Assembly: GCF_000711245.1 (NCBI RefSeq)
Contig: NZ_JOMH01000001.1
Span: forward strand, 2,040,830-2,104,829
Length of the DNA: 64,000 nt
Direction: 5' to 3'
DNA from: Polycyclovorans algicola TG408
Lineage (GTDB): Bacteria > Pseudomonadota > Gammaproteobacteria > Nevskiales > Nevskiaceae
Positions 6,085 to 60,247 of the stretch are shown here, one piece after another; within the stretch, counting starts at the first letter, position 1; every line of letters starts with the position of its first letter. The translations under genes were made by a program, and so were the position numbers. The notes beneath the pieces are model-generated. The model saw nothing but the letters and a program-made list of their open reading frames with translations, had not been told where the DNA came from and searched no databases.

Positions 6085-7862
6085 GGCTGTACCCCGAGCA
6101 GTGGCATGGCGGCGCTGCCGGTGATCGACACAGCGGCAATGACTGGGTCGGCAACATTCACGCCGCCGGTGATCAGGTATTGCTCGTGAAGCCCGAAGAG
6201 CAACAGGCCGACCTGGTCCCCGGCGGACAGGCGCTCACCGATGCCCGGCAGAGCGATCTGATGACGCCCGATGCCGCGCAGCGGCTGTACCTGATTGTCA
6301 GCCAACTCCCAAATGCCGTTGCGGCTGCGGCCGGTGCCGACAAAGACAATCACGTTGTCGGGGTCTTGCAGCAATTCTGGCGCGTCGGCCGTCAGCATGA
6401 GATCGACCGTTGGCACCCCGGCCAGCACTTCGCCATCTGCGGCGGCGGTGTACAGCGGTGCAATGGCACGGACCCGGTTCACCCCGGCCAGCGTGCCGGT
6501 TTCCGGCACGGTGAACCCGCTGCCGCCCACCGTCACGTCCTCGGCGCGCACCGCGTCGCCGGGCGACAGTGACAGGCACACCGGCTCGGCGCCGAGCACC
6601 GCGTTGGCGGCGCCGGGAATACCCTTCAGGTACTCGTCGAACCAGGCGATCGTCGCAACGTCGGCATTGATCGCGCCGCAGTCAAAATCCAACACCCCAT
6701 CGGGTTGCGTGACCAGCGCCACCGGGTCAGGCACCACCTGCAGCGAGTTGTGGCCTGCCTGATAACTGAGCAGGCGCACGTCGCCGCCAAGGTTGCGATA
6801 GCACTCGAAATTGCGCTGGGCCTCGGTGAAATTGAACAGCGTGTCGCGCATGCCCTGAAAGTAAAGCACGTGCACCGGACCCGGCAGGACCGGCTCGAAA
6901 CCCGGTGCGGTGTCGGCGCCGCCATTGGTGGCCACCGGCACGCCGTCACAGAAATAGCCGGGCCCGTGGTAGCGCAATAAATCCTGACCGAGCGGGGCAA
7001 TGCGGTTGGCAGCCAGACCGCCCACGAAGGTGTCGGTCACGAACGGATCGAAGTTGCCGCCGCCGCCCGCCGTATTGCCGATGCCGAACAGGATCGACGC
7101 CCACAGTGCCTTGATCACGCCACCGGGATTGAGGCTGTAGGTGAGGTCATGCCAAGTAATTTGCGGCACCAGCGCGTCGAGGCGCTGCTTGGCGTCGACG
7201 GCGTGCAGCACGTGCTGGTAGCCGCCGCCGTAACTGGGACCGATGGCGCCGAGCACCATGTTGTCGGAGCCCGCTGCAAGGTCGGGGCCGACCGCGTACC
7301 AGTCGAGGTTGACCTCCAGCCAGTCGAGAATGGCGACCAGCATCCGGCCTTCCTGGTCGGGGTCCATGATGCGAATCGTGCCGCCGGTTTCACCGTGACC
7401 CGCCTGGTCGATGCTGATGATGCCGTAGCCCGCATCGCGCAAGGCACCAATTGGCGACGACAGGCCCGGGACCCCGGCGCCCCCATCATCGGTCTGGCGA
7501 CTGGACGAGAAGCCGTGCCCTTCAAGCACCAGGGGATAGAACTCACCGCCGGTGAGCGTGACCGGTTCGAAGACCTGGAACACCACGTCATCTTGCGGAT
7601 TGACGGGCGACGGAATGCTGATGCGGCAGACCAGCCCGTCACGGCTTTCACCGACCGGTGGCGCCCCCGGCATCGAGCGGCCCGTGTCATCGCAACTCGC
7701 GTTGCGCACGCCGCCAAAATCGGGCCGGGTCGTCGGCGCTTCGGCGTCGCTCCCCCCGGTATCGACTGAGATCGAATCCCCGCAAGCACCCAGGCTGATC
7801 AGCACCGCGCCGGTCACGATCAGGCGCATCCCGACCGTCACCTCACGCAAAAATGGCATCAT
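6081..7862 (-). CDS. Lipoprotein serine hydrolase, X-Pro peptidase/CocE-like architecture
   Basis: Predicted outer-membrane lipoprotein of 593 residues: a lipobox LGAC places the lipidated cysteine at residue 27. The alpha/beta hydrolase core has a nucleophile elbow GPSYGGG at about residue 210 and an Asp/His-rich segment (ALVTQPDGVLDFDC, QAGHNSLQV). The last 150 residues resemble the jelly-roll that closes X-prolyl peptidase/cocaine-esterase type enzymes (LMLTADAPELLQDPDNVIVFVGTG). GGGAGG upstream supports the start at 7862; a second Met at residue 12 would give a shorter signal peptide. It could be a secreted esterase, lipase or peptidase. It overlaps the next hydrolase by four bases. Confidence 0.75.
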   Translation of the reverse strand: MMPFLREVTVGMRLIVTGAVLISLGACGDSISVDTGGSDAEAPTTRPDFGGVRNASCDDTGRSMPGAPPVGESRDGLVCRISIPSPVNPQDDVVFQVFEPVTLTGGEFYPLVLEGHGFSSSRQTDDGGAGVPGLSSPIGALRDAGYGIISIDQAGHGETGGTIRIMDPDQEGRMLVAILDWLEVNLDWYAVGPDLAAGSDNMVLGAIGPSYGGGYQHVLHAVDAKQRLDALVPQITWHDLTYSLNPGGVIKALWASILFGIGNTAGGGGNFDPFVTDTFVGGLAANRIAPLGQDLLRYHGPGYFCDGVPVATNGGADTAPGFEPVLPGPVHVLYFQGMRDTLFNFTEAQRNFECYRNLGGDVRLLSYQAGHNSLQVVPDPVALVTQPDGVLDFDCGAINADVATIAWFDEYLKGIPGAANAVLGAEPVCLSLSPGDAVRAEDVTVGGSGFTVPETGTLAGVNRVRAIAPLYTAAADGEVLAGVPTVDLMLTADAPELLQDPDNVIVFVGTGRSRNGIWELADNQVQPLRGIGRHQIALPGIGERLSAGDQVGLLLFGLHEQYLITGGVNVADPVIAAVSITGSAAMPLLGVQP

Positions 7863-49003: not shown

Positions 49004-49780
49004 TCAGTGCAGTTGGATGACCTGGCCCGCATCAACGCTCAGCACCGCGCCGTTGATGAACGACGAGGCGTCGCTGGCCAGCAACAGCAGTGCGCCGTCG
49101 AGTTCTTCGACCCGGCCCAGCCGTTTCATGGGGTGGCGCTCGATGTCGGCCTTGCCGGCGTCGGTTTCGAAGTAGGCCTCCACCATGTCGGTCAAGAAAT
49201 AGCCGGGCGCGATGGCATTGCAGCGAATGCCCTTGTCGAACATGTCGCGTGCCATCGACCGGGTGAAATGGTTGGCCGCCGCCTTGAGGCTGCCGTAGAC
49301 CGGCACGCCCAGCATTACCTGCTCGGCGATGATCGAGGTGACGTTGACGATGGTGCCGGGTTTTTCGGCGGCGATCAGGCGACGTGAAAAACTGCGCGAG
49401 GTGCGCATGATTCCTGAGAAATTGACATTGATCAGGTTCTGCCAGCGCTCGTCCTCAACGTCCGGGAACAGGCCGAAGTCGACCTGGGCTGCGGCATTGA
49501 CCAGGACGTTGACCGGGCCGACGGCCGTCTCGGCGTCATCGAACAGGCGCTCGACGCTTGTCGAGTCGCCCACGTCGACGCTCAGCGCGATGGCCTTGCC
49601 GCCCGCTGCGGTGATTTTGCTGACCGTCGCCTCCAGTTTGTCCTTGCGGCGCGCCGCGCAGATCACCGTGGCCCCCGCGTCGGCCAGCACCTGAGCGAAG
49701 CGCGCGCCCATGCCGCTCCCCGCGCCGGTGACCAGCGCGACCTTGCCCTGCATTGAGAACAGCTTTTCGATATTCGACAT
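49004..49780 (-). CDS. Short-chain dehydrogenase/reductase
   Basis: Classical SDR of 258 residues. Cofactor motif TGAGSGMG at 18-25, the basic CAARRKDK suggests NADP(H), NAAAQ replaces NNAG, catalytic Ser149, Tyr162 and Lys166 (VYGSLKAAAN), and a C-terminal FINGAVLSVDAGQVI. It is the third gene of a unit with the sulfotransferase and DUF1214 genes, 34 bases after the latter. A role in oxidising or reducing a hydroxy or keto group on the same hydrophobic substrate is likely but unproven. Confidence 0.9.
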   Translation of the reverse strand: MSNIEKLFSMQGKVALVTGAGSGMGARFAQVLADAGATVICAARRKDKLEATVSKITAAGGKAIALSVDVGDSTSVERLFDDAETAVGPVNVLVNAAAQVDFGLFPDVEDERWQNLINVNFSGIMRTSRSFSRRLIAAEKPGTIVNVTSIIAEQVMLGVPVYGSLKAAANHFTRSMARDMFDKGIRCNAIAPGYFLTDMVEAYFETDAGKADIERHPMKRLGRVEELDGALLLLASDASSFINGAVLSVDAGQVIQLH

Positions 49781-49814: not shown

Positions 49815-51002
49815 TTACTCGCGGCCGACGCGGGCGACCGACCAGGCGCGGTTGCGCAGGGCTTTCTGGCGGGCCTCTGGCGTCAGGCGCGGCGTCGAGC
49901 TGGGCAGTACCGTTTCCAGCTCGGACAGCTTCACGCGACGCACGGTGGGAATCGGCGTTGAATCCGGCTCGTAGTAGCGGATTGCGAGCAGGCCGCGTTG
50001 ATGTCCCCCGGCGTCCAGCCAGTTGGCAATGCCGGGGTCGCCGTGGGCGATGACGGCGCGAAACATGCCGTCTTCGTCGATGTGCGCCTGATGCCCGTTC
50101 AGCGAGGTTTGTCGCAGGTGATAGTCGCGGGCTTCCCAGAAGTGGCTGCAGAGCTGGATGCTCCAGTAATACGACTGGGGCAGCTTCACTTCGAGCACCA
50201 GCGCTTCGTCGGGCGCGCATTGGTAGATGCCCTTGCCGTATTTCAGCGATTTCCAGCCGAAGTCGATGGCGTCGAACACCATCGAATTGGCTGGTGCGGC
50301 GTAGTAAGAGTTCACCACCTGCTGGAAGCGTGCCGGGACCTGTCGCAGCCAGTCGCAGAACAGCTCCAACCCGTTGGCGATGGCGTCGGTGGTCAGTGCG
50401 GGCGGTGGGTAGGTCGCGTTCTCGTTGACGATGCTCAGTCGCGCCGGCTGCTCGGTGTTCCAGTCGTAGTAGTACTGGCGGAAGATGATTTCGCCCTGGC
50501 CGGGCGCCAGTTCGATCCAGTTGCGGACGCCTTCGGGGCGCTCGCGGCTGAGGACGATGTCGACGTGATTGCCGGGGCCCACGTCGAACTGCGTCAATCG
50601 GCTGTGCAGCTTCCAGTCGTTGATGTGTGCAAATCGGTCATGCCGGGTTTCGATGTCGAACACCCGGGCGGTGCCGCGATCACCGCTGATGCGGTACACG
50701 TTGTCACCGTGCACCGACGCCCATTGATAGTGGCAATCGGTGGCCGGCAGACCCCAGTGGATGCGCGTGCTGAGCAGGTGGAAGAACTGGGGGTAGTTGG
50801 CATCGGCCAGCTCCATGGTCATCGGCAGCGCGCCGGCGATCAGCCGCGTCAGGTAACGCACGCCTTCGGCGCGGGTCAGGTCGTCGGTGACCAGCGGGTC
50901 GTTCCAGACCAGCTGGTCGAGTTCGCCCATGACCTTGACGACCTCGGCCCAGATGGCGGGCTCGGTGAATTGCAGGTGGGCCAGTTGCGTGGTGTTAGCC
51001 AT
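49815..51002 (-). CDS. DUF1214 domain protein
   Basis: 395 residues, no signal peptide. The C-terminal DUF1214 region includes LPQSYYWSIQLCSHFWEARDYHLRQTSLNG and ANWLDAGGHQRGLLAIRYYEP. The middle part (FHLLSTRIHWGLPATDCHYQWASVHGDNVYRISGDRG) belongs to the same group, often found next to sulfotransferase-like and SDR genes in sterol- or hydrocarbon-using bacteria. No catalytic function is established. The ATG at 51002 overlaps the sulfotransferase gene by 8 bases, and the longer frame lies within that gene. Confidence 0.82.
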   Translation of the reverse strand: MANTTQLAHLQFTEPAIWAEVVKVMGELDQLVWNDPLVTDDLTRAEGVRYLTRLIAGALPMTMELADANYPQFFHLLSTRIHWGLPATDCHYQWASVHGDNVYRISGDRGTARVFDIETRHDRFAHINDWKLHSRLTQFDVGPGNHVDIVLSRERPEGVRNWIELAPGQGEIIFRQYYYDWNTEQPARLSIVNENATYPPPALTTDAIANGLELFCDWLRQVPARFQQVVNSYYAAPANSMVFDAIDFGWKSLKYGKGIYQCAPDEALVLEVKLPQSYYWSIQLCSHFWEARDYHLRQTSLNGHQAHIDEDGMFRAVIAHGDPGIANWLDAGGHQRGLLAIRYYEPDSTPIPTVRRVKLSELETVLPSSTPRLTPEARQKALRNRAWSVARVGRE

Positions 51003-52203
51003 GCGCCTTCTCCGTGGTGGACGTGGGTGGGGTGATGAATCGCGCCTGGTAGGCCGAGAAGCGCTGTTCAATGCGTTCGGCTGTGAAGCCGAACTCGGCG
51101 GCGGAATAGGTGTAACTGCCGAAGTGGTGGTCGGGCCGGCGCGCCTCGTAGGCCTCGAAAGCGGCAACCGCCTCAGTGGTGAGGGTACGACCTGCCAAGG
51201 CGTAGATGCGGCGGATGGTCTCGATCACGTCGCCAACGACTTCTTCGAACTGCAGGTCGAGAATGCGACCGGCGGGCAGTTGGTCGCGAACCTCCAGATA
51301 ACGGTCCATCGACCGGCCCCAGTAGTCGAGCATTTCGGTGCCCAGCACCTTGGGGTCGCCGTGATCACTGCCGATATTCCGCGCCTCCTGGATCAGCGCG
51401 GTGATCGACGGCAGGATTTTCTGGATGTCGCGATGACAGTGCACCAGCACCGCATCGGGAAAGGTTTCCAGCAACACGTCCACCGCGCCGGTGTGACAGG
51501 GCGACTTCATGATCCACGGCCGTCCTCGACCGCCGCCGTCCTGCCACTGCAGGTACTGCATCTGCGCGTGCAGATGGCGGTACATGGGGCGCGGGTCGCA
51601 GGTCATGATGTGGTCGTAATAATTGGGCGTGCGCGCGAACAGCCAAGCAATGACGCACTCGAACGAGCCGTGCATCAGGTGCAGTTCTTCGTCGGGCTCC
51701 AAAGCTTCGGTGGGGTGCCGGGCCATCCACCCGGGAAACTGGGTGGCGAGCATCTGCTCCACCGCCTGCGCAGCTTCGATGCGGGCCGTCGGCTTGCCGG
51801 GGGTCTCGTCAGGAAACGGTGCGGGGTTGATCTGACGCCAGTAATCGAGGCGCTGGGTCTCGGGGTCGGCCGACATCACGCGCTGCAACTTGGTGGTCCC
51901 GGTGCGTGGTAGCCCCAGAATCACGATGGGCGCGACGATCTGCTCGGCCAGAATCTCCGGATGCTGCTTCACGTCCCGAACGTAGCGCAGCCGGTTGACC
52001 AACATGTTGACGATGCCGCCATAGATCATCTGCTGGCCTGTGGCGTTGAGACGAGCGTGGGCGGCGAGGTCGTCGACATACGTCCCGAGGCCGACCAGGA
52101 AGTGCTGATCGCCAAAATCATCGAGGTCGGTCGCTGCGCGTGCGGCCGCCAGCAATCCGGGAACGGTGGTCGGAAGCGGTGCCGCTGCGGTTGTTTCAGT
52201 CAT
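50995..52203 (-). CDS. Sulfotransferase family protein
   Basis: PAPS-type sulfotransferase fold, 402 residues. The 5'-phosphosulfate loop is ILGLPRTGTTKLQR (PRTGTT at 99-104). The 3'-phosphate region is DAVLVHCHRDIQKILPSI and the WIMKSPCHTGAVDVLL strand is typical of bacterial members. The substrate may be a hydroxylated lipid or sterol-like compound, or the fold may serve a non-sulfation role. GGAGA before the ATG at 52203 sets the start. It is first in the operon, divergent from the AraC gene across 195 bases that carry a motif repeated upstream of the EthD-like gene. Confidence 0.85.
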   Translation of the reverse strand: MTETTAAAPLPTTVPGLLAAARAATDLDDFGDQHFLVGLGTYVDDLAAHARLNATGQQMIYGGIVNMLVNRLRYVRDVKQHPEILAEQIVAPIVILGLPRTGTTKLQRVMSADPETQRLDYWRQINPAPFPDETPGKPTARIEAAQAVEQMLATQFPGWMARHPTEALEPDEELHLMHGSFECVIAWLFARTPNYYDHIMTCDPRPMYRHLHAQMQYLQWQDGGGRGRPWIMKSPCHTGAVDVLLETFPDAVLVHCHRDIQKILPSITALIQEARNIGSDHGDPKVLGTEMLDYWGRSMDRYLEVRDQLPAGRILDLQFEEVVGDVIETIRRIYALAGRTLTTEAVAAFEAYEARRPDHHFGSYTYSAAEFGFTAERIEQRFSAYQARFITPPTSTTEKAHG

Positions 52204-52272
52204 GGGGTCTCCTGCAAGGGGGCACTCGCGAAAACGCGATGCCGGGCCAGTGTCAATCGCCGACCGACGGCC

Positions 52273-52315
52273 GGCTATCACTTGCGTTCGCGGGTGCGCT
52301 GTTCAGAATCGTTCG
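52273..52315. promoter_or_regulatory. Shared operator/promoter motif, copy A
   Basis: 43 bases between the sulfotransferase and AraC genes that match 53834-53875 closely. Conserved blocks include GGCTA, CACTT, CGTTCGCG and TGTTCAGAATC. On the minus strand GAAC half-sites recur at roughly 10 and 15 bases, a direct-repeat layout typical of AraC-family binding. Confidence 0.6.
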
Positions 52316-52398
52316 GAACACGGCATGATCTGCGGATGACAACGAGACCGGCGCTTCTAAACGGGCGCGGCATTTGAGGGTGGTGGAGGAGCATCGCG

Positions 52399-53313
52399 AT
52401 GACCAACAAATCAGGACTGCGCGGCGTAGAGGCCTATGCTCGGGCGTGTCACAGCCGCCCACAATTGGTGCGGCGGGGGCAATCTCGAGACGGCATTGGG
52501 CTGTACGGCTGGCAAATGCCGACGACGCGCGAAGTGCACATTCCCCAGACCCAAGAGCTGACCCTGTCGGTCCATCTGGGCGGCGCACGCCGGGTTCGCG
52601 TGTACACCGAAGCGGGCTGGAGCCAGACTTTTTCGCGGCCCGGCGACATCACGCTGATCCCCCGCGGGCAATCCATCCACTACCGCACCGACGGTTGGGT
52701 CGATTTCGCGACGGTGCATTTCCCCGCGCGGTCGGGGTGCGTGGCGAGCGATCGCGTGGGCAAGGGCCTGCTGAACCTGCCGCATTGCGTGTTCGCGCTG
52801 CGCGACGCCTACGCGGTGGCCACCGTGCAAACCCTGATGCGCGCAACGTCGGCGGCGTCCCCCGACGACCGGCGTTACTTCGCCAAGCTGCTGGATGCGC
52901 TGGCTTGGCACCTTGCGCGCGTGGTCGATGCCGGCAACGCCGAAACCGTGCAACTGCCGGCCGCGCGATCGACGCCCGAGGCGACTCAGACCCTCGCCAA
53001 TCTTGATGCGGTAGTGGAATGGATCGATGCCAACCTCGCCGAAAAACTCAGCCTCGACGCGCTGGCCGCCCGCGCTGGCCTTGGTCGCACAGGCTTCACG
53101 CAACAGTTCACACGCCGCTTTGGCTGCTCGCCGCACCGCTTCATCATGCAGCGACGCATCGAGCGGGCGCGTGCCCTGCTGGAGGCGGGGCAGCAGCGCG
53201 TCACCGACATCGCCTACGAACTGGGCTTCAGCAGCCAGTCGCACTTCTCCACTGCCTACAAGGCGTTCACCGGCCAACTGCCGCGCGAGGTTTTCGCCCG
53301 CGCGATCCGCTGA
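52399..53313 (+). CDS. AraC family transcriptional regulator
   Basis: 304 residues: N-terminal cupin-like sensing domain (about 30-140, GDITLIPRGQSIHYRTDGWVDFATVHFP) and C-terminal double helix-turn-helix (about 205-300, LSLDALAARAGLGRTGFTQQFTRRFGCSPHRFIMQRRIERARALL and VTDIAYELGFSSQSHFSTAYKAFTGQLP). It faces the sulfotransferase operon divergently and converges with the EthD-like gene, both of which share an upstream motif, so it is the likely local activator. The inducer is unknown. Confidence 0.92.
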   Translation: MTNKSGLRGVEAYARACHSRPQLVRRGQSRDGIGLYGWQMPTTREVHIPQTQELTLSVHLGGARRVRVYTEAGWSQTFSRPGDITLIPRGQSIHYRTDGWVDFATVHFPARSGCVASDRVGKGLLNLPHCVFALRDAYAVATVQTLMRATSAASPDDRRYFAKLLDALAWHLARVVDAGNAETVQLPAARSTPEATQTLANLDAVVEWIDANLAEKLSLDALAARAGLGRTGFTQQFTRRFGCSPHRFIMQRRIERARALLEAGQQRVTDIAYELGFSSQSHFSTAYKAFTGQLPREVFARAIR

Positions 53314-53334
53314 GCCATCACGCGACTGCGGCCT

Positions 53335-53700
53335 TCATCCTTCCTTGGTGACGCGCGGCGTGATCGGCACGCACAGGCTACCGGTCACACCCTGAAAATC
53401 GAGCGTCGGGCTGATGTCCACTGCACCCGAGTCGATGCCCTTTCGTAGCGCCGCAGCAAAGGTTTCCAGCTCTTCGGTGGTCTTGGCTTCAATCTCGTAG
53501 ATGGCGACGTAAGCGTGGCGGTCGGCGTTGACGCCCGGCAGCACGGTCACGCCTTTTTCGATGCGGTAACGCGTTGCAGAAATCACGCCAGGCACTTTCG
53601 AGACGTCCTGAAGATGCTGTTCGGAATACCAGCGATTGAATTCGCCGTCGGTCTCCGGGGAGGTGGAATCGGACAGCACCAGAAAGAGGGATCGGACCAC
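53335..53700 (-). CDS. EthD/DUF4286-like small protein
   Basis: 121 residues of ferredoxin-like dimeric barrel type. The features RSLFLVLSDSTSPETDGEFNRWYSEQHLQDVSKVPGVISATRYRI and the AYVAIYEIEAKTTEELETFAAAL strand are typical of this group, which occurs beside catabolic genes and can act as a monooxygenase-like or substrate-binding helper. No signal peptide. Its upstream region has copy B of the motif found at the sulfotransferase promoter, 134-175 bases before the ATG. Confidence 0.8.
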   Translation of the reverse strand: MVRSLFLVLSDSTSPETDGEFNRWYSEQHLQDVSKVPGVISATRYRIEKGVTVLPGVNADRHAYVAIYEIEAKTTEELETFAAALRKGIDSGAVDISPTLDFQGVTGSLCVPITPRVTKEG

Positions 53701-53833
53701 GGAGCTTCTCCTGTTGGGCGAGTGCGGGGTGTCCGTACACGCAGAGTCGATACAGCAGGCGTTGGTGAGCGCGCGTGAAATGTCGCGTCAGGCAACCCGT
53801 ACTACCCCCAGTCTCATCCGGGTGTTGAAGCCG

Positions 53834-53875
53834 GGCTACCACTTTCGTTCGCGCCAGGGTGTTCAGAATCATTCG
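53834..53875. promoter_or_regulatory. Shared operator/promoter motif, copy B
   Basis: 42 bases upstream of the EthD-like gene with the same blocks as 52273-52315 (GGCTA, CACTT, CGTTCGCG, TGTTCAGAATC, TTCG), one base shorter in the middle. Being non-coding and repeated before two differently arranged genes, it is best read as a regulator site plus core promoter. Confidence 0.6.
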
Positions 53876-54306
53876 CCCGAGTCCAATCCCCGGCTGAGGG
53901 TCCGCAACATGCGGCACGCGACATATTTTTTCGACCCTGGTCCTTTTCTTGAGGTGTCTTGAGGGCCGCCTGCCTTGGGCTCGGATCGGTACCCGGTGGC
54001 CACAAGCACTGCCGAGGGCGCCTTAAGGTCCCGCACAAACGCTGAAGGCCCACAGCGATTGACGCAAATTCCCCGCAGCGTCGTTGATGCTGAGTGGCCA
54101 TGCTGGTGTTTCAAGGAAGCACTGATGACGACCAATGCCATGGACAGAAGGTAAGTTTTTGTTAAATCGTATAAATCAATAGTAAAAATTGCCCAATTTT
54201 TCTTGAGTAATCGGGATTGTTTGTGTAGGGTCAGGTCGTCCATGAAGCAAGCCTGAACGCACGTGGACAACCAGTAAATTCCTACAAACCGAGGATGAGT
54301 TTTGTT
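53876..54306. other. Intergenic region with AT-rich promoter segment
   Basis: No gene is evident. At 54150-54230 the composition falls sharply towards A+T for this genome (TTGTTAAATCG, TATAAATCAATAG), suggesting the promoter of the following secreted-protein gene. The remainder shows nothing recognisable. Confidence 0.5.
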
Positions 54307-54819
54307 ATGAACATTAAAAAGATGAGAACTGCGGGGACCTTGAAATCGGTTCTGGTTGCGGGGTTGGTCATGTTTGGGGCATCCGGCGCTGTCAATGCCG
54401 GCTTGTTGTCAAACCTTGTTGAGGGCACGGTGACGCTGCTGGATAGCCTAACCGGAGGGATTCCTTCTTCCAGCATCAACGAGTCGGTATCGCTCAGTGC
54501 GGGTCCGGTTCCGATTCCTGACGTGCCCGTGACGGTTTGCGTTGGTGGGCAGTGCGTGAGCACCCCCGCTCTTTCATCGGTCGCGCTGGAACTGGTCGCC
54601 AGCGTTCAAGCTGATGCGGCGCTTCCGGTCATCGTTGCGGGAAGCTGCCCGCAGGGGCAGACCGGTGTCGCGTTGAGCGTAGTGACTTCTTCTGCATCAA
54701 CCGTGCTTGAAACCAACCTCAGTGGGCAGCTCGGCATGATGCAGCTTGAACGCATGATCGGCCCGTTCGATCTCGGCGCCGAAGGTCGCACGGTAACGGT
54801 CACCGCCTGCGCCGACTAA
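54307..54819 (+). CDS. Exported protein of unknown function
   Basis: 170 residues with a signal peptide (basic MNIKKMRTAGTLK, hydrophobic core, cleavage near VNAG at about 29). The mature protein is short, non-charged and Ser/Val/Leu-rich, with three pairs of cysteines at most (TVCVGGQC, GSCPQG, TACAD), consistent with disulphides in an extracellular domain. An AGGATGAG ribosome site suits the ATG at 54307 better than that at 54295. Upstream DNA is AT-rich. No family recognised; it follows the sulfotransferase/AraC module. Confidence 0.65.
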   Translation: MNIKKMRTAGTLKSVLVAGLVMFGASGAVNAGLLSNLVEGTVTLLDSLTGGIPSSSINESVSLSAGPVPIPDVPVTVCVGGQCVSTPALSSVALELVASVQADAALPVIVAGSCPQGQTGVALSVVTSSASTVLETNLSGQLGMMQLERMIGPFDLGAEGRTVTVTACAD

Positions 54820-55745: not shown

Positions 55746-55789
55746 TGCATCTTACCTTCTGAACCATGCAGCAGCCCGGAGAAACCACC

Positions 55790-56377
55790 ATGAGCCGAAT
55801 CGCCTACTACCGCGTCTCAACAGTTGGCCAAAGCATCGAAGCGCAGCGTGCCGCGCTGGGTGGCGGTGCCGCCATCACCAAGGAATTCTTCGATGAAGGC
55901 GTGAGCGGCACCACCAAGGCCGCTGAACGTACGGGCTTCAAGGCGATGCTCGGCTACGTGCGCGAGGGCGACACCTTGGCGGTGTACGCAGTTGACCGGC
56001 TGGGTCGCGATGCGCTGGACGTTCAGGCCAACGTGCGCGCCCTACTTGATCGCGGTGTGACCGTGGACGTGCACGGCTTGGGCGTCATCGGGCGCGGGGT
56101 GGGCGAACTCATCCTTGCGGTGTTGGCCCAGGTGGCCGACATGGAGCGCCACAGGATTGTTGAGCGTTGCGAGTCTGGCCGCCAGGCGGCGCGCGCTTCA
56201 CTTGAAGCCACCGGCCGCACGCATCGCGGCAAGGTCAGCATGGGGCGCCCGGCCGCTGCCGACGCTCAAGCGGTCATCGCATGGAAGCGCGAGCACGCCG
56301 CCAGCATCGCCGTCACGGCGCAGCAGTTCGGCATCAGCAACGCCACTGTGAAGCGGTACGCACGCGCCGCCGCGTAA
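55790..56377 (+). CDS. Serine recombinase (resolvase/invertase family)
   Basis: 195-residue small serine recombinase. YYRVST puts the nucleophile at Ser10. The second-site arginines are in VYAVDRLGRDALDVQANVRALLDRGV, and ADMERHRIVERCESGRQAA is the long E helix leading to DNA. The C-terminal helix-turn-helix is AVTAQQFGISNATVKRYARA. GGAG lies before the ATG at 55790. It probably resolves or inverts DNA in the neighbouring element. It converges with the primase gene. Confidence 0.93.
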   Translation: MSRIAYYRVSTVGQSIEAQRAALGGGAAITKEFFDEGVSGTTKAAERTGFKAMLGYVREGDTLAVYAVDRLGRDALDVQANVRALLDRGVTVDVHGLGVIGRGVGELILAVLAQVADMERHRIVERCESGRQAARASLEATGRTHRGKVSMGRPAAADAQAVIAWKREHAASIAVTAQQFGISNATVKRYARAAA

Positions 56378-56399
56378 CCCCTCAGCTTTCACAGCCGAA

Positions 56400-56430
56400 G
56401 GCGTGCCGATCTTGATCGGTGCGCCTTTTT
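56400..56430 (+). terminator. Terminator after the recombinase gene
   Basis: A 12-base arm (56400-56411) and its partner (56414-56425) pair fully with two G-T wobbles; the centre opens as a small loop. Five T follow. Confidence 0.75.
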
Positions 56431-56499
56431 CGCTGGCCGCCTTTGGGGGTGGGGTGCGGCGTTATTTTTTGCGGCATTTTTCCAAGCTCGTCCGCAAGC

Positions 56500-56528
56500 C
56501 GCCAAGAGGAAATGGGCGGTTCTTGGCG
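56500..56528. repeat. Inverted repeat downstream of the recombinase gene
   Basis: CGCCAAGA (56500-56507) and TCTTGGCG (56521-56528) separated by 13 bases. It is a candidate recombinase crossover or accessory site, or a structured RNA. Confidence 0.5.
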
Positions 56529-56750
56529 TGATGCGAGTCTGCCGACCCTTCACGGCCTAACGGCTTCAACACAGGTTGGCTGTTAACTCATCCCTGCGCA
56601 AAGGCAAAGAGTGAAATTCCGAGCATCGCAAGCACCCGCGAGGCCTAGACCTGGGTAAGGACCCAAATGCTCCTAGCGACAACTCGCGCCCATCAGCACC
56701 GGTGTACGAAATGCAACGAAAGGACCCAAAGAGTTGCGTCGTAAAACCCA

Positions 56751-56861
56751 ACGGGGACAACGGGGACGACGGGGAACTAAACATATACTATTGATTTATA
56801 TAATTATTATTTATAGACCATCAGTCAGAACAGCGGGGAACCTACGGGGACGGGACGGGGA
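56751..56861. other. Putative replication origin: iteron-like repeats around an AT-rich core
   Basis: ACGGGGA begins at 56751, 56760 and 56769 (exact 9-bp period), and (A/G)CGGGGA begins at 56833, 56844 and 56855 (exact 11-bp period). Between them 56776-56819 is about 84% A+T, in a genome well above 60% G+C. Tandem binding sites around an easily melted core are the hallmark of iteron origins, and the neighbour gene encodes a primase-helicase-like protein. Confidence 0.55.
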
Positions 56862-57041
56862 GCACTGGCGAATCGTTGCAAAGTTGCGGCTGGACAACGC
56901 GCCGAAAAGAAAACGGGCGCCCCCGTGCCCCACGGCCGCACGCGCTGCGCTGGCCAGGCGAACGCGGCGCCTCAAGCACTCGCAGTCATGGGGTCGGTGT
57001 GGTGGCGCAGATCAGCGCCAGGCGCGCGTCAGCCCGCGCCG

Positions 57042-59933
57042 CTACGGCAGTCGATCAGCGGGCGAAGAATCCAGCAGCCGGTCGCCGTCCAAGGCGTAGA
57101 AAGGCAGCTTCTTGGATGACTGCGGCGTGATGTGACGCGAGATAAAGCGGTCAGCTTCTTGCGTGTGCAGGATGCCTTTATCCGCCAGCGCCTTGCAGAC
57201 GGTCGTTATCTCGAAGCCCTCGCACACCTCACGTTTGAAGACTTCAGGGAACACCAGGTACAGCGTGCGGCCGCTGCGGTCTTGCTTGCGGTAGCCCGCT
57301 CGCTTCATCACCCGGCCTTCGCTCACATGCGGCATGGCGGCATCCACCAGAGATGCGCGATACCCAGGGTCATCCTTTCGTGAGTAGTCGCCCACGTCGG
57401 CCCCGGTCGTGATGTCCTGAAACCGTGCGCCGCCATGTTCTTCGATGAAGGCGCGAACCTGCGCCCTCATGGCTGCCGGTTCCATCGCGCCCGCTGTGCC
57501 GCGCTTTGTGAGCCATGCCTGAAACGCATCCACGCACGCTGACCGCACGGCCTCGAAGTCCCAGCCGGTAAGCCCCCACTCGGTAGCCAGCTCGCCTGCG
57601 TAGCAGACCAGCCCGAAGCGCGAGGCCACGCGCAGCACCTGCCCGTCAGCACCGGCAGGGCACACGTCCCTGACGAACGTCTGCACCACCTCGCGCCCTT
57701 CACGAATTACCTCATCCCGGGCTTGGGTGAGTCGTTCCACGAACAGCGGCCCGGCGTGGCCATAGTTGACGCTGGCAGCTTCCACCAGGTGCAGCGACAG
57801 CGCCCGCGCGCTGGTCTCGCCTGCGCGGCCTTCGTCGCCGCCTGCAGAGTCGAACAGGCCGAACCCGCGCCCGGCATCGGCGGGCACTTCCACCAGGCGC
57901 ACGTCATGGCCTGCGCGTGTCTTCTGCCCGGCTGCATTCATCAGTGCGGCTGTGCCGACTTCACCCGTGGACAACAGCAACACGCGCCATGACTTGATGG
58001 CTCGCGCTCCGCCTTCCTTCCGTGCACGTTGCTTGCCGCGCCCGTTGGCCAGCATGTAAGCCACCTCCCCGATGATGCGTGGGTCTGCCTGCCCGATCTC
58101 ATCCAGCGCCAGCAGCGTGTCGTTGAACTCTTCGGCGATGGCTTCCAGGCCATTGTCAGTAGATCGCCACTGGCGCCAATAGGATTCAGGCGAGCCCCAC
58201 ACCGAACCCGCCAGGCGCAGCGCCGTGGTCTTGCCCGACGACGAACCGCCCACCAGGTGGAAGCCGCCCGATTCGCCACCAATCAGCGACAGCAGCGGCC
58301 CCGCAAAGCCACAGCTCAAGGCGAAGATGGCTCGGCGATGCTCACCACACGGCGCACTCACCAGGGCGCGCCAGTCGTTGAAGGTGCCGCAGCGCTCATA
58401 GCTGGACGTCTCCGCCACTTCATCGGCCAGGTGGTAGCGTTCGCCGCCCGCGTTGCCGAAGGTCTGCGAGGGCAGCACGAACGCGGTGCCGTGCCAGCCG
58501 GTACGCGTCACGGTGCGAGCCCGCGCGGCCGGGACTTCGCGCATCAGGTAGCGGGTGAGCTGGCGCTGTGCTTCCGGTCCATCACCAATGATCGGCAACC
58601 CGCGTTCCAACAGGGCGCCGCGCAGCTCATCCCCGCGACTACTGCCCAAGCTGCGGGCCGCAATGACGCAGGTCTTTTGCACCTGGTCCGCATCAGCGAA
58701 CGACACCAGGCGGCCGAAGCTGCCGCCGCGCGCGTCGCGCGTCACCGCCTCGATGACCAACGGCGAGCATACGAACAGCGGCGGCTTTGCCGTCACCTTC
58801 TCGCCCTTCACGTCTACGCCACACCAGTAAAGCCCGAACTCTCTCAGCTCGAAGTGTGGCGTTACCTGGTCGGGCTTGTCCGCTGCCTTGCCCGTGCCCG
58901 TGGCCTTCGCCTTGCCATCGCGCTTGCTCAGTGGCAGCGGCGGCAGTGGGGCGGCGGGCGCGGGTCGCCCTATCTGTGCGGGCGCCTGTTGTGCCGCCGC
59001 TTCAAGCCCGGTCAGCAGGGCCGCGCGAGTGGCGTCCTTGCCGTGCTGTGAGGCGTAGTCGTTCCAATCGGTGCCAGCGTCACCCGCCGCGAACTCAGGC
59101 GCCGCCACCACGCCACTCACGGCCGCCGCTGCGGTGTTGGCTTTGCTGATGCCGGGGTTGCCTTCGGTGTTGTGGTCATTGTCAGCGGCGACCACCACCC
59201 GCGCGCCCGGCCGGGCCTTGCGCATGGCCCGCGCCACGGGTTCCAGATTGCCCGCATCAAAGGCCACGGCAACCGGCCAGCCGGTAGCCTCATGCACGCT
59301 GGCGGCCGTGGCGTAGCCCTCTGCCAGCGCCACCAGCGGCGCATCAGTGGGCAGTAGTCCCACCAGGTGAAAGGCGCCACGCTTGGGCGTGCCGGTAAGG
59401 AACTTCTTTGCGCCATCAGCCTGAATAAATTGCAGCCCCACCAGCCGCGCGCCCGCCTTCACCGGCACCACCAGGGCGTCACGAAGTTGGCCAATGCCGT
59501 GGGGCTTGACCCCCTTGGCCACCAGGTAAGCATGGGCAGGGTCCGCACCGCGTTCAGATGCTTGCTTCCAGGTCTGCGCCGCGCGGCCTGCCGTGACCTC
59601 GCGTTGCTTGGTGGCTTCCTTTGCCGCTTCCTCCCGCATGGCTTGCACACGCGCACGGTGGGCGGCGTCTTCCTCAGGCGTCAGCGTGCGGCCAATGTCC
59701 GCGCGCCAGGTCTCGCTTTGCCCCGTCTTCCAGCTCCCGAACGCACCGGCCGGAATGCCGTCCGTGTGCAGCCGGTACCACCCGTTCTTCGAGGCGGGCT
59801 TATCGCCTTCTACGCGGTAGCGGTGGCGCTCGCCATCGGCCTTGATCGGCTGCGGGCATTCCAGCCCGGCCGCGCTTAATGCGCGGCCGAACTGGTCGAC
59901 AATCTCCGCCAGTGACAGGGTGATGGGCTTCAT
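57042..59933 (-). CDS. TOPRIM/DUF927 primase-helicase-like replication protein
   Basis: 963 residues. The N-terminal part recalls zinc-less P4/phage primases. A TOPRIM fold has the acidic strand VALAEGYATAASV near 201 and VVVAADND near 246. A DUF927 ATPase follows, with Walker A GGSSSGKTTALRL near 560 and Walker B LLALDEIGQAD near 606, then EVAYMLANGRGKQRA. The C-terminal 250 residues have a helical and probably DNA-binding tail. Proteins of this plan drive replication of satellites and integrative elements. It is the last gene of a minus-strand unit, 180 bases from the repeats of the putative origin. Confidence 0.88.
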   Translation of the reverse strand: MKPITLSLAEIVDQFGRALSAAGLECPQPIKADGERHRYRVEGDKPASKNGWYRLHTDGIPAGAFGSWKTGQSETWRADIGRTLTPEEDAAHRARVQAMREEAAKEATKQREVTAGRAAQTWKQASERGADPAHAYLVAKGVKPHGIGQLRDALVVPVKAGARLVGLQFIQADGAKKFLTGTPKRGAFHLVGLLPTDAPLVALAEGYATAASVHEATGWPVAVAFDAGNLEPVARAMRKARPGARVVVAADNDHNTEGNPGISKANTAAAAVSGVVAAPEFAAGDAGTDWNDYASQHGKDATRAALLTGLEAAAQQAPAQIGRPAPAAPLPPLPLSKRDGKAKATGTGKAADKPDQVTPHFELREFGLYWCGVDVKGEKVTAKPPLFVCSPLVIEAVTRDARGGSFGRLVSFADADQVQKTCVIAARSLGSSRGDELRGALLERGLPIIGDGPEAQRQLTRYLMREVPAARARTVTRTGWHGTAFVLPSQTFGNAGGERYHLADEVAETSSYERCGTFNDWRALVSAPCGEHRRAIFALSCGFAGPLLSLIGGESGGFHLVGGSSSGKTTALRLAGSVWGSPESYWRQWRSTDNGLEAIAEEFNDTLLALDEIGQADPRIIGEVAYMLANGRGKQRARKEGGARAIKSWRVLLLSTGEVGTAALMNAAGQKTRAGHDVRLVEVPADAGRGFGLFDSAGGDEGRAGETSARALSLHLVEAASVNYGHAGPLFVERLTQARDEVIREGREVVQTFVRDVCPAGADGQVLRVASRFGLVCYAGELATEWGLTGWDFEAVRSACVDAFQAWLTKRGTAGAMEPAAMRAQVRAFIEEHGGARFQDITTGADVGDYSRKDDPGYRASLVDAAMPHVSEGRVMKRAGYRKQDRSGRTLYLVFPEVFKREVCEGFEITTVCKALADKGILHTQEADRFISRHITPQSSKKLPFYALDGDRLLDSSPADRLP

Positions 59934-60247
59934 GATGCTGGCGCGCTCCCAGCGCGTGCCGCGCGCAGCTCTTCTTCTAGAAGGTGGTGGGCTTGGCAGT
60001 TGGCCAGCTTTGCAATGTCCACGGCGTGCGCTGCCAGTGCCGTGATCGACTCTGCTGTTGACAGCAGATCAGCGTCATCCAGGCTTCCCAAGGATTGACG
60101 GTTTGCGAGCTGCTTGGAGAGCGCCGTAAGCCCTTCGGCGGCGTGGGCAAATAGAACGTCCGCGAACTCGGCAATCTCCGCCGCATTGGATCCCTCCACA
60201 AAATGGAGTCCAACTGGTGAGGCGGCGCGCGGGTAGGTGGCGTTCAT
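59930..60247 (-). CDS. Hypothetical element protein, 105 residues
   Basis: Helical, Ala/Leu/Glu-rich, no signal peptide or TM helix (EIAEFADVLFAHAAEGLTALSKQL, ESITALAAHAVDIAKLANCQAHHLLEEEL). It overlaps the primase gene by four bases and the upstream gene by four bases, so is translated with them. No family recognised. Confidence 0.7.
   Translation of the reverse strand: MNATYPRAASPVGLHFVEGSNAAEIAEFADVLFAHAAEGLTALSKQLANRQSLGSLDDADLLSTAESITALAAHAVDIAKLANCQAHHLLEEELRAARAGSAPAS

Follow-up and report, generated by a model that had tools for sequence, protein, structure and literature searches.

Two short, near-identical sequences stand in front of two separate transcription units in the Polycyclovorans algicola TG408 genome, one before a sulfotransferase operon and one before a gene for an EthD-like small protein, and flank the gene of an AraC/XylS-family regulator. 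The question raised by this locus is whether the two copies are operators of that regulator, and which genes it would then control. The analysis started from a window of 64,000 nucleotides (contig NZ_JOMH01000001.1, positions 2,040,830 to 2,104,829) and was extended to the whole genome and to 58 genomes of the family Nevskiaceae.

Gene content of the AraC locus

The AraC gene is transcribed divergently from the sulfotransferase operon, and the EthD-like gene lies convergent to it (Table 1). The HTH_18 match spans residues 222-300 of its product and AraC-type domains with solved structures match at about residues 198-302, in agreement with the two HTH motifs in a C-terminal domain some 100 residues long that characterize AraC/XylS proteins. 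The N-terminus, with about 190 residues conserved among orthologs, gave no convincing Pfam family. The label EthD-like, taken from the preliminary description, did not hold as a family assignment, as the protein scored under the cut-offs of both NCBIfam (TIGR02118, 20 bits versus 30.5) and Pfam (PF07110, 14.4 versus 22); the name is therefore used here for likeness only.

Beyond the EthD-like promoter, a locally AT-richer stretch at 54295-54819 encodes a protein of 174 aa whose start resembles a signal peptide and which has no match in Pfam. It is followed at 55766-60247 by genes for a serine resolvase (PF00239) and a 963-aa DUF927/Toprim primase-like protein, whose predicted functions suggest a mobile element starting about 2 kb from the operators.

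Table 1. Genes and predicted control elements of the AraC locus (positions in the window)
Feature	Position	Strand	Remarks
AraC/XylS-family regulator, 304 aa	52399..53313	+	HTH_18, E 7.4e-23; HTH_AraC, E 4.4e-15
Sulfotransferase (Sulfotransfer_3), divergent operon gene 1	50995..52203	-	PF13469, E 6.8e-37
DUF1214 protein, operon gene 2	49815..51005	-	PF06742, E 1.3e-8
Short-chain dehydrogenase/reductase (SDR), operon gene 3	49004..49780	-	PF13561, E 1.1e-55
EthD-like small protein, 121 aa, predicted second target	53335..53700	-	EthD matches below cut-off
Motif copies	52272-52315 and 53833-53875		same orientation, one per promoter
Sulfotransferase-operon operator, distal half-site (box 1), GAACGATTCTGAACAGCG	52297..52314	-	score 11.9, matrix without this genome; conserved at orthologous loci
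Sulfotransferase-operon operator, proximal half-site (box 2), GAACGCAAGTGATAGCCG	52272..52289	-	score 9.5; spacing 25 bp
TGATAG in sulfotransferase-side box 2, replacing the -35 hexamer	52275-52280	-	
Sulfotransferase-side -10-like hexamer GACACT	52249..52254	-	26 bp downstream of first base of TGATAG
EthD-like gene operator, distal half-site (box 1), GAATGATTCTGAACACCC	53857..53874	-	score 4.2
EthD-like gene operator, proximal half-site (box 2), GAACGAAAGTGGTAGCCC	53833..53850	-	score 14.4; spacing 24 bp
TGGTAG in EthD-side box 2, at the -35 position	53836-53841	-	
EthD-side -10-like hexamer GAGACT	53810..53815	-	26 bp downstream of first base of TGGTAG

Two copies of the motif in the genome

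The elements GGCTA, CACTT, CGTTCGCG and TGTTCAGAATC follow each other in the same order at 52273-52315 and 53834-53875, as had been claimed. The length of 43 bp given for the motif was correct for the first copy; the second has 42 bp, owing to an interval between CGTTCGCG and TGTTCAGAATC of 7 bases in the first copy versus 6 in the second. Aligned locally, the two promoter regions scored 28, which none of 2000 dinucleotide-shuffled pairs reached (maximum 22), and only 13 in the opposite orientation. In this alignment, the similarity continued to CCAGTGTCA/CCAGTCTCA, about 20 bases past the motif, which is conserved and resembles a -10 element on the - strand; the preliminary description had missed it. 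TGTTCAGAATC alone, with 2 mismatches allowed, occurred at chance level in the window, the significance being that of the composite.

The genome is closed in one contig of 3,653,213 bases (3.65 Mb). The pattern written for each copy matched that copy alone, and a genome-wide profile built without the EthD-side copy returned only the two promoters, the sulfotransferase site with an E value of 6.1e-7 and the EthD-side site with 0.012. The motif is thus not a dispersed repeat, a possibility ruled out by the presence of only two copies in the closed genome, and the scan outlined in the preliminary description yielded the proposed regulon of two transcription units.

Other candidate sites were rejected. 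When up to 3 mismatches were allowed, the half-motif TGTTCAGAATCRTTCG was found at 23 places, of which the three best additional ones lacked the upstream half, and weak extra profile matches outside both promoters were chance-like on reading and mostly intragenic. A single half-site pattern was uninformative, its reversed control matching more often.

Probable direct-repeat operators and the -35 region

On the - strand, in the direction of the target genes, the first copy reads GAACGATTCTGAACAGCGCACCCGCGAACGCAAGTGATAGCCG and the second GAATGATTCTGAACACCCTGGCGCGAACGAAAGTGGTAGCCC. Each consists of two direct-repeat half-sites beginning GAAYG, with a consensus of roughly GNACGAWTCTGANA and GNACGAANNTGRTAGYCC at 24-25 bp, followed by the -10-like hexamer. 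The repeat noted earlier is real, but what had been taken for a single motif is a pair of half-sites read on the - strand. With a matrix trained on other genomes only, the two copies ranked first and second in the 64 kb (21.3 on the sulfotransferase side, 18.6 on the EthD side), and the next match scored 7.3. The direct repeat is present in both copies and at homologous loci, as in the class II operators of AraC/XylS dimers, whose two direct half-sites are separated by about two turns of the helix and lie upstream of the target.

Across 17 aligned sites, the sigma-70 -10 score peaked 26 bp past the first base of TGRTAG, with a mean of -0.9 compared to -7.3 over all offsets, a peak reached by none of 2000 shuffles (best -2.9). 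It persisted without the window copies, and in each of these the peak offset was the best of 48 positions. The distance of the -10-like hexamer from TGRTAG was 25-26 bp throughout the 17 sites. A consensus promoter scan detected no promoter at these places, including no recognizable -35 hexamer of their own, which is expected for activator-dependent promoters. Given the fixed 26 bp to the -10-like hexamer, the proximal half-site lies over the -35 region of the predicted promoter, the layout of XylS/CphR-type activation.

Comparison with known regulators

In Escherichia coli, the ligand-bound AraC dimer activates from araI1-I2, a direct repeat beside the -35 region. The predicted operators of the window likewise are direct repeats next to -35. 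In E. coli, however, the half-sites are spaced at 21 bp and the DNA is looped to a distant site; no distant third site was seen here. The araI1-I2 half-sites are quoted in PMC4514859.

Each monomer of an AraC/XylS dimer binds one of two consecutive direct half-sites that adjoin or overlap -35, and inducer binding leads to activation (PMC4514859, PMC6205950). CphR of Rhodococcus sp. YH-5B activates the cphA2A1 promoter from two imperfect direct repeats that extend from -35 to -69, with a 2-base overlap between the proximal repeat and the -35 hexamer (PMC6205950). The locus resembles CphR in the divergent orientation of an AraC-type regulator and its target operon and in the proximal direct repeat over -35, and differs in the target genes and in the half-site, TGCA-N6-GGNTA at 20-bp spacing in CphR (PMC6205950) compared to a CGAWTCTGRTAG-like sequence at 22-25 bp here. 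XylS at Pm and MtlR at PmtlE, both with known inducers, also have two consecutive direct half-sites just upstream of the -35 region, though the MtlR half-sites AGTGC-N5-AGTAT, 22 bp apart, are unlike those found here (PMC4514859). At 24-25 bp, the window half-sites are spaced more widely than XylS-type sites, with 20-22 bp, a point against the assignment.

Autorepression is known in the AraC family. An AraC protein covering the -35 region through the proximal half-site might accordingly act as a repressor, blocking transcription until induction; this is unlikely, as the promoters have no recognizable -35 hexamer of their own, their -10 element lies at the distance expected of activator-dependent class II promoters, and the close analogs CphR (PMC6205950) and MtlR (PMC4514859) activate. 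By analogy with CphR, MtlR and XylS, the AraC protein of the window is most likely an activator, acting jointly on the sulfotransferase operon and the EthD-like gene.

Orthologous loci in other Nevskiaceae

An AraC ortholog was present in 5 of the 58 family genomes. The orthologs, with 50-58% identity, are in G004, G017, G065 (twice) and G072, divergent from the same three-gene operon, and the sulfotransferase-DUF1214-SDR operon is syntenic with AraC in L046, L047, L058, L060 and L061. The named ortholog records come from metagenome assemblies of Nevskia and Panacagrimonas; a contig scan with the single AraC protein was empty, and an alignment-based scan gave these loci.

In G004, G072 and both locus copies of G065, the region separating AraC from the sulfotransferase operon contains the same direct repeat. 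It reads GGACGATTCTG...GTACGAATCTGACAG in this intergenic region of G004, G065 and G072 and GGACGATTCCG...GGACGAATTCGATAT in the second G065 copy, each with a spacing of 24 bp. The corresponding region of G017 has a strong proximal half-site, GTACGAATTTGATAG, and a degenerate distal half, which was not recognizable at either the sulfotransferase or the EthD-ortholog promoter of this genome. When long flanks were aligned with MAFFT, the operator sites fell out of register.

Close orthologs of the EthD-like protein (84%) were found among the 58 genomes only in G065 and G017 besides this genome, both with the AraC ortholog. In G017, the gene is on a separate contig and is preceded by GGACGATTTTGGTAGTCC, with a proximal half-site score of 21.3, the next in 14 kb being 10.6. 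In G065, it lies downstream of a pyrophosphatase-like gene near a contig end, and no site was found in the 364 bp available upstream. Since G004 and G072 are without a close EthD ortholog, the second target is not a fixed member of the regulon.

In G004 and G065, a palindrome-ended, MITE-like insert, TAGGGCCTGTCA...TGACAGGCCCTA, separates the operator from the AraC start; it is longer in G065 (L046, about 7431-7540; L061/L114, upstream of AraC). It is absent from L060/L115, and G072 represents the empty site. The insert leaves the operator and the sulfotransferase promoter intact.

Related repeats upstream of AraC paralogs

A related repeat occurs immediately upstream of AraC paralogs with 31-39% identity, at the same position and on the strand leading away from AraC. 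It is typically AGCCGATTCTGACATG-N6-8-CCGAATCTGGTAGATC with a spacing of 22-23 bp, the range in paralogs being 21-23 bp versus 24-25 bp in the orthologs. With leave-one-out matrices, the two-box repeat was found in 23 of the 29 upstream regions of the subfamily, each matched by at most 3 of 300 shuffles and many belonging to AraC genes with 31-39% identity; for L075, L077, L090, L078, L072 and L074, never used in training, no shuffle of 300 did so. No clear site was seen in five regions (L081, L087, L088, L091 and L092), and in the sixth, L066, an insertion had moved the site outside the scanned stretch. A profile built from 11 sites gave 18 matches in the 58 genomes at E ≤ 0.013, all directly upstream of subfamily AraC genes, a count that is partly circular because the training sites had mostly been picked upstream of AraC genes. 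Only the untrained matches are independent (G064:C4, G066:C15, G065:C226 and two near-copies in G004), and all of them adjoin an AraC gene.

The upstream repeat of some paralogs is a variant (AGCACNTTTT... with CGAAAGA; L071, L072, L085, L087, L091 and L092), and such paralogs probably form a second specificity class within the same subfamily. Repeat-bearing paralogous AraC genes in L074, L076, L080 and L084 are divergent from a conserved membrane protein, e.g., MNPTQPNPTDYGMWKLMAWTGPVFF....

The distribution of the repeat bears on which protein recognizes it. The same genome encodes a paralog with 37% identity (2611137-2611991), and AraC-family proteins of one subfamily can share similar operators, so that this or another regulator might bind the sites and the AraC gene be a mere neighbor; this is quite improbable, as upstream of that paralog there is only a weak, differing variant, AGCACGTTTTGAACA...GGAATCGAAAGACG, and in five genomes the strong repeat accompanies orthologs of the AraC gene in the window. 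A mobile repeat or a local duplication of recent origin, without regulatory meaning, to which the near-identity of copies only 1.6 kb apart and the mobile-element-like region starting nearby might point, can be dismissed, the flanks having no similarity past the promoter element, the genome no further copies, and the repeat being conserved in other genera, both at orthologous loci and in paralogs.

Predicted regulon and its meaning

The two copies are thus very probably operators of the neighboring AraC/XylS-type activator, with a predicted regulon of two promoters. The proposal that they are putative sites of the flanking AraC, at first a guess based on position, gained support from the repeat that accompanies the AraC gene in orthologs and 31-39% paralogs and from the matrix without window sequences, which picked out exactly these copies. 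The two-operon extent would follow from the genome scan, which returned the sulfotransferase-operon and EthD-like promoters only.

In the proposed mechanism, an AraC dimer would occupy the half-site pair with one subunit per half-site, its binding to DNA probably being triggered by a small inducer. The proximal half-site would stand for the -35 hexamer and the bound AraC would recruit RNA polymerase, and the sulfotransferase-DUF1214-SDR operon and the EthD-like gene would be switched on together. The first operator, located in the AraC/sulfotransferase intergenic region, may autoregulate AraC too.

The mode of control is of an ordinary, well-known kind; the operator and the small regulon are new. 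A literature search for the gene set found nothing relevant, and the DNA code of the operator does not seem to have been described so far. For a so far uncharacterized regulator, the operator, the promoter and the regulon can now be predicted, and a separately transcribed EthD-like gene is linked to the sulfotransferase-DUF1214-SDR operon. It is also reasonably probable that Nevskiaceae have an undescribed AraC subfamily with one operator code, AGCCGATTCTGACA-N8-10-CCGAWTCTGRTAGAYC (GNACGA variant in the window's clade), and several different target-gene sets. The code is searchable for a regulator subfamily that adjoins other uncharacterized Nevskiaceae genes and is a more useful by-product than the single regulon; if it is true, regulons would be predictable from sequence across the family.
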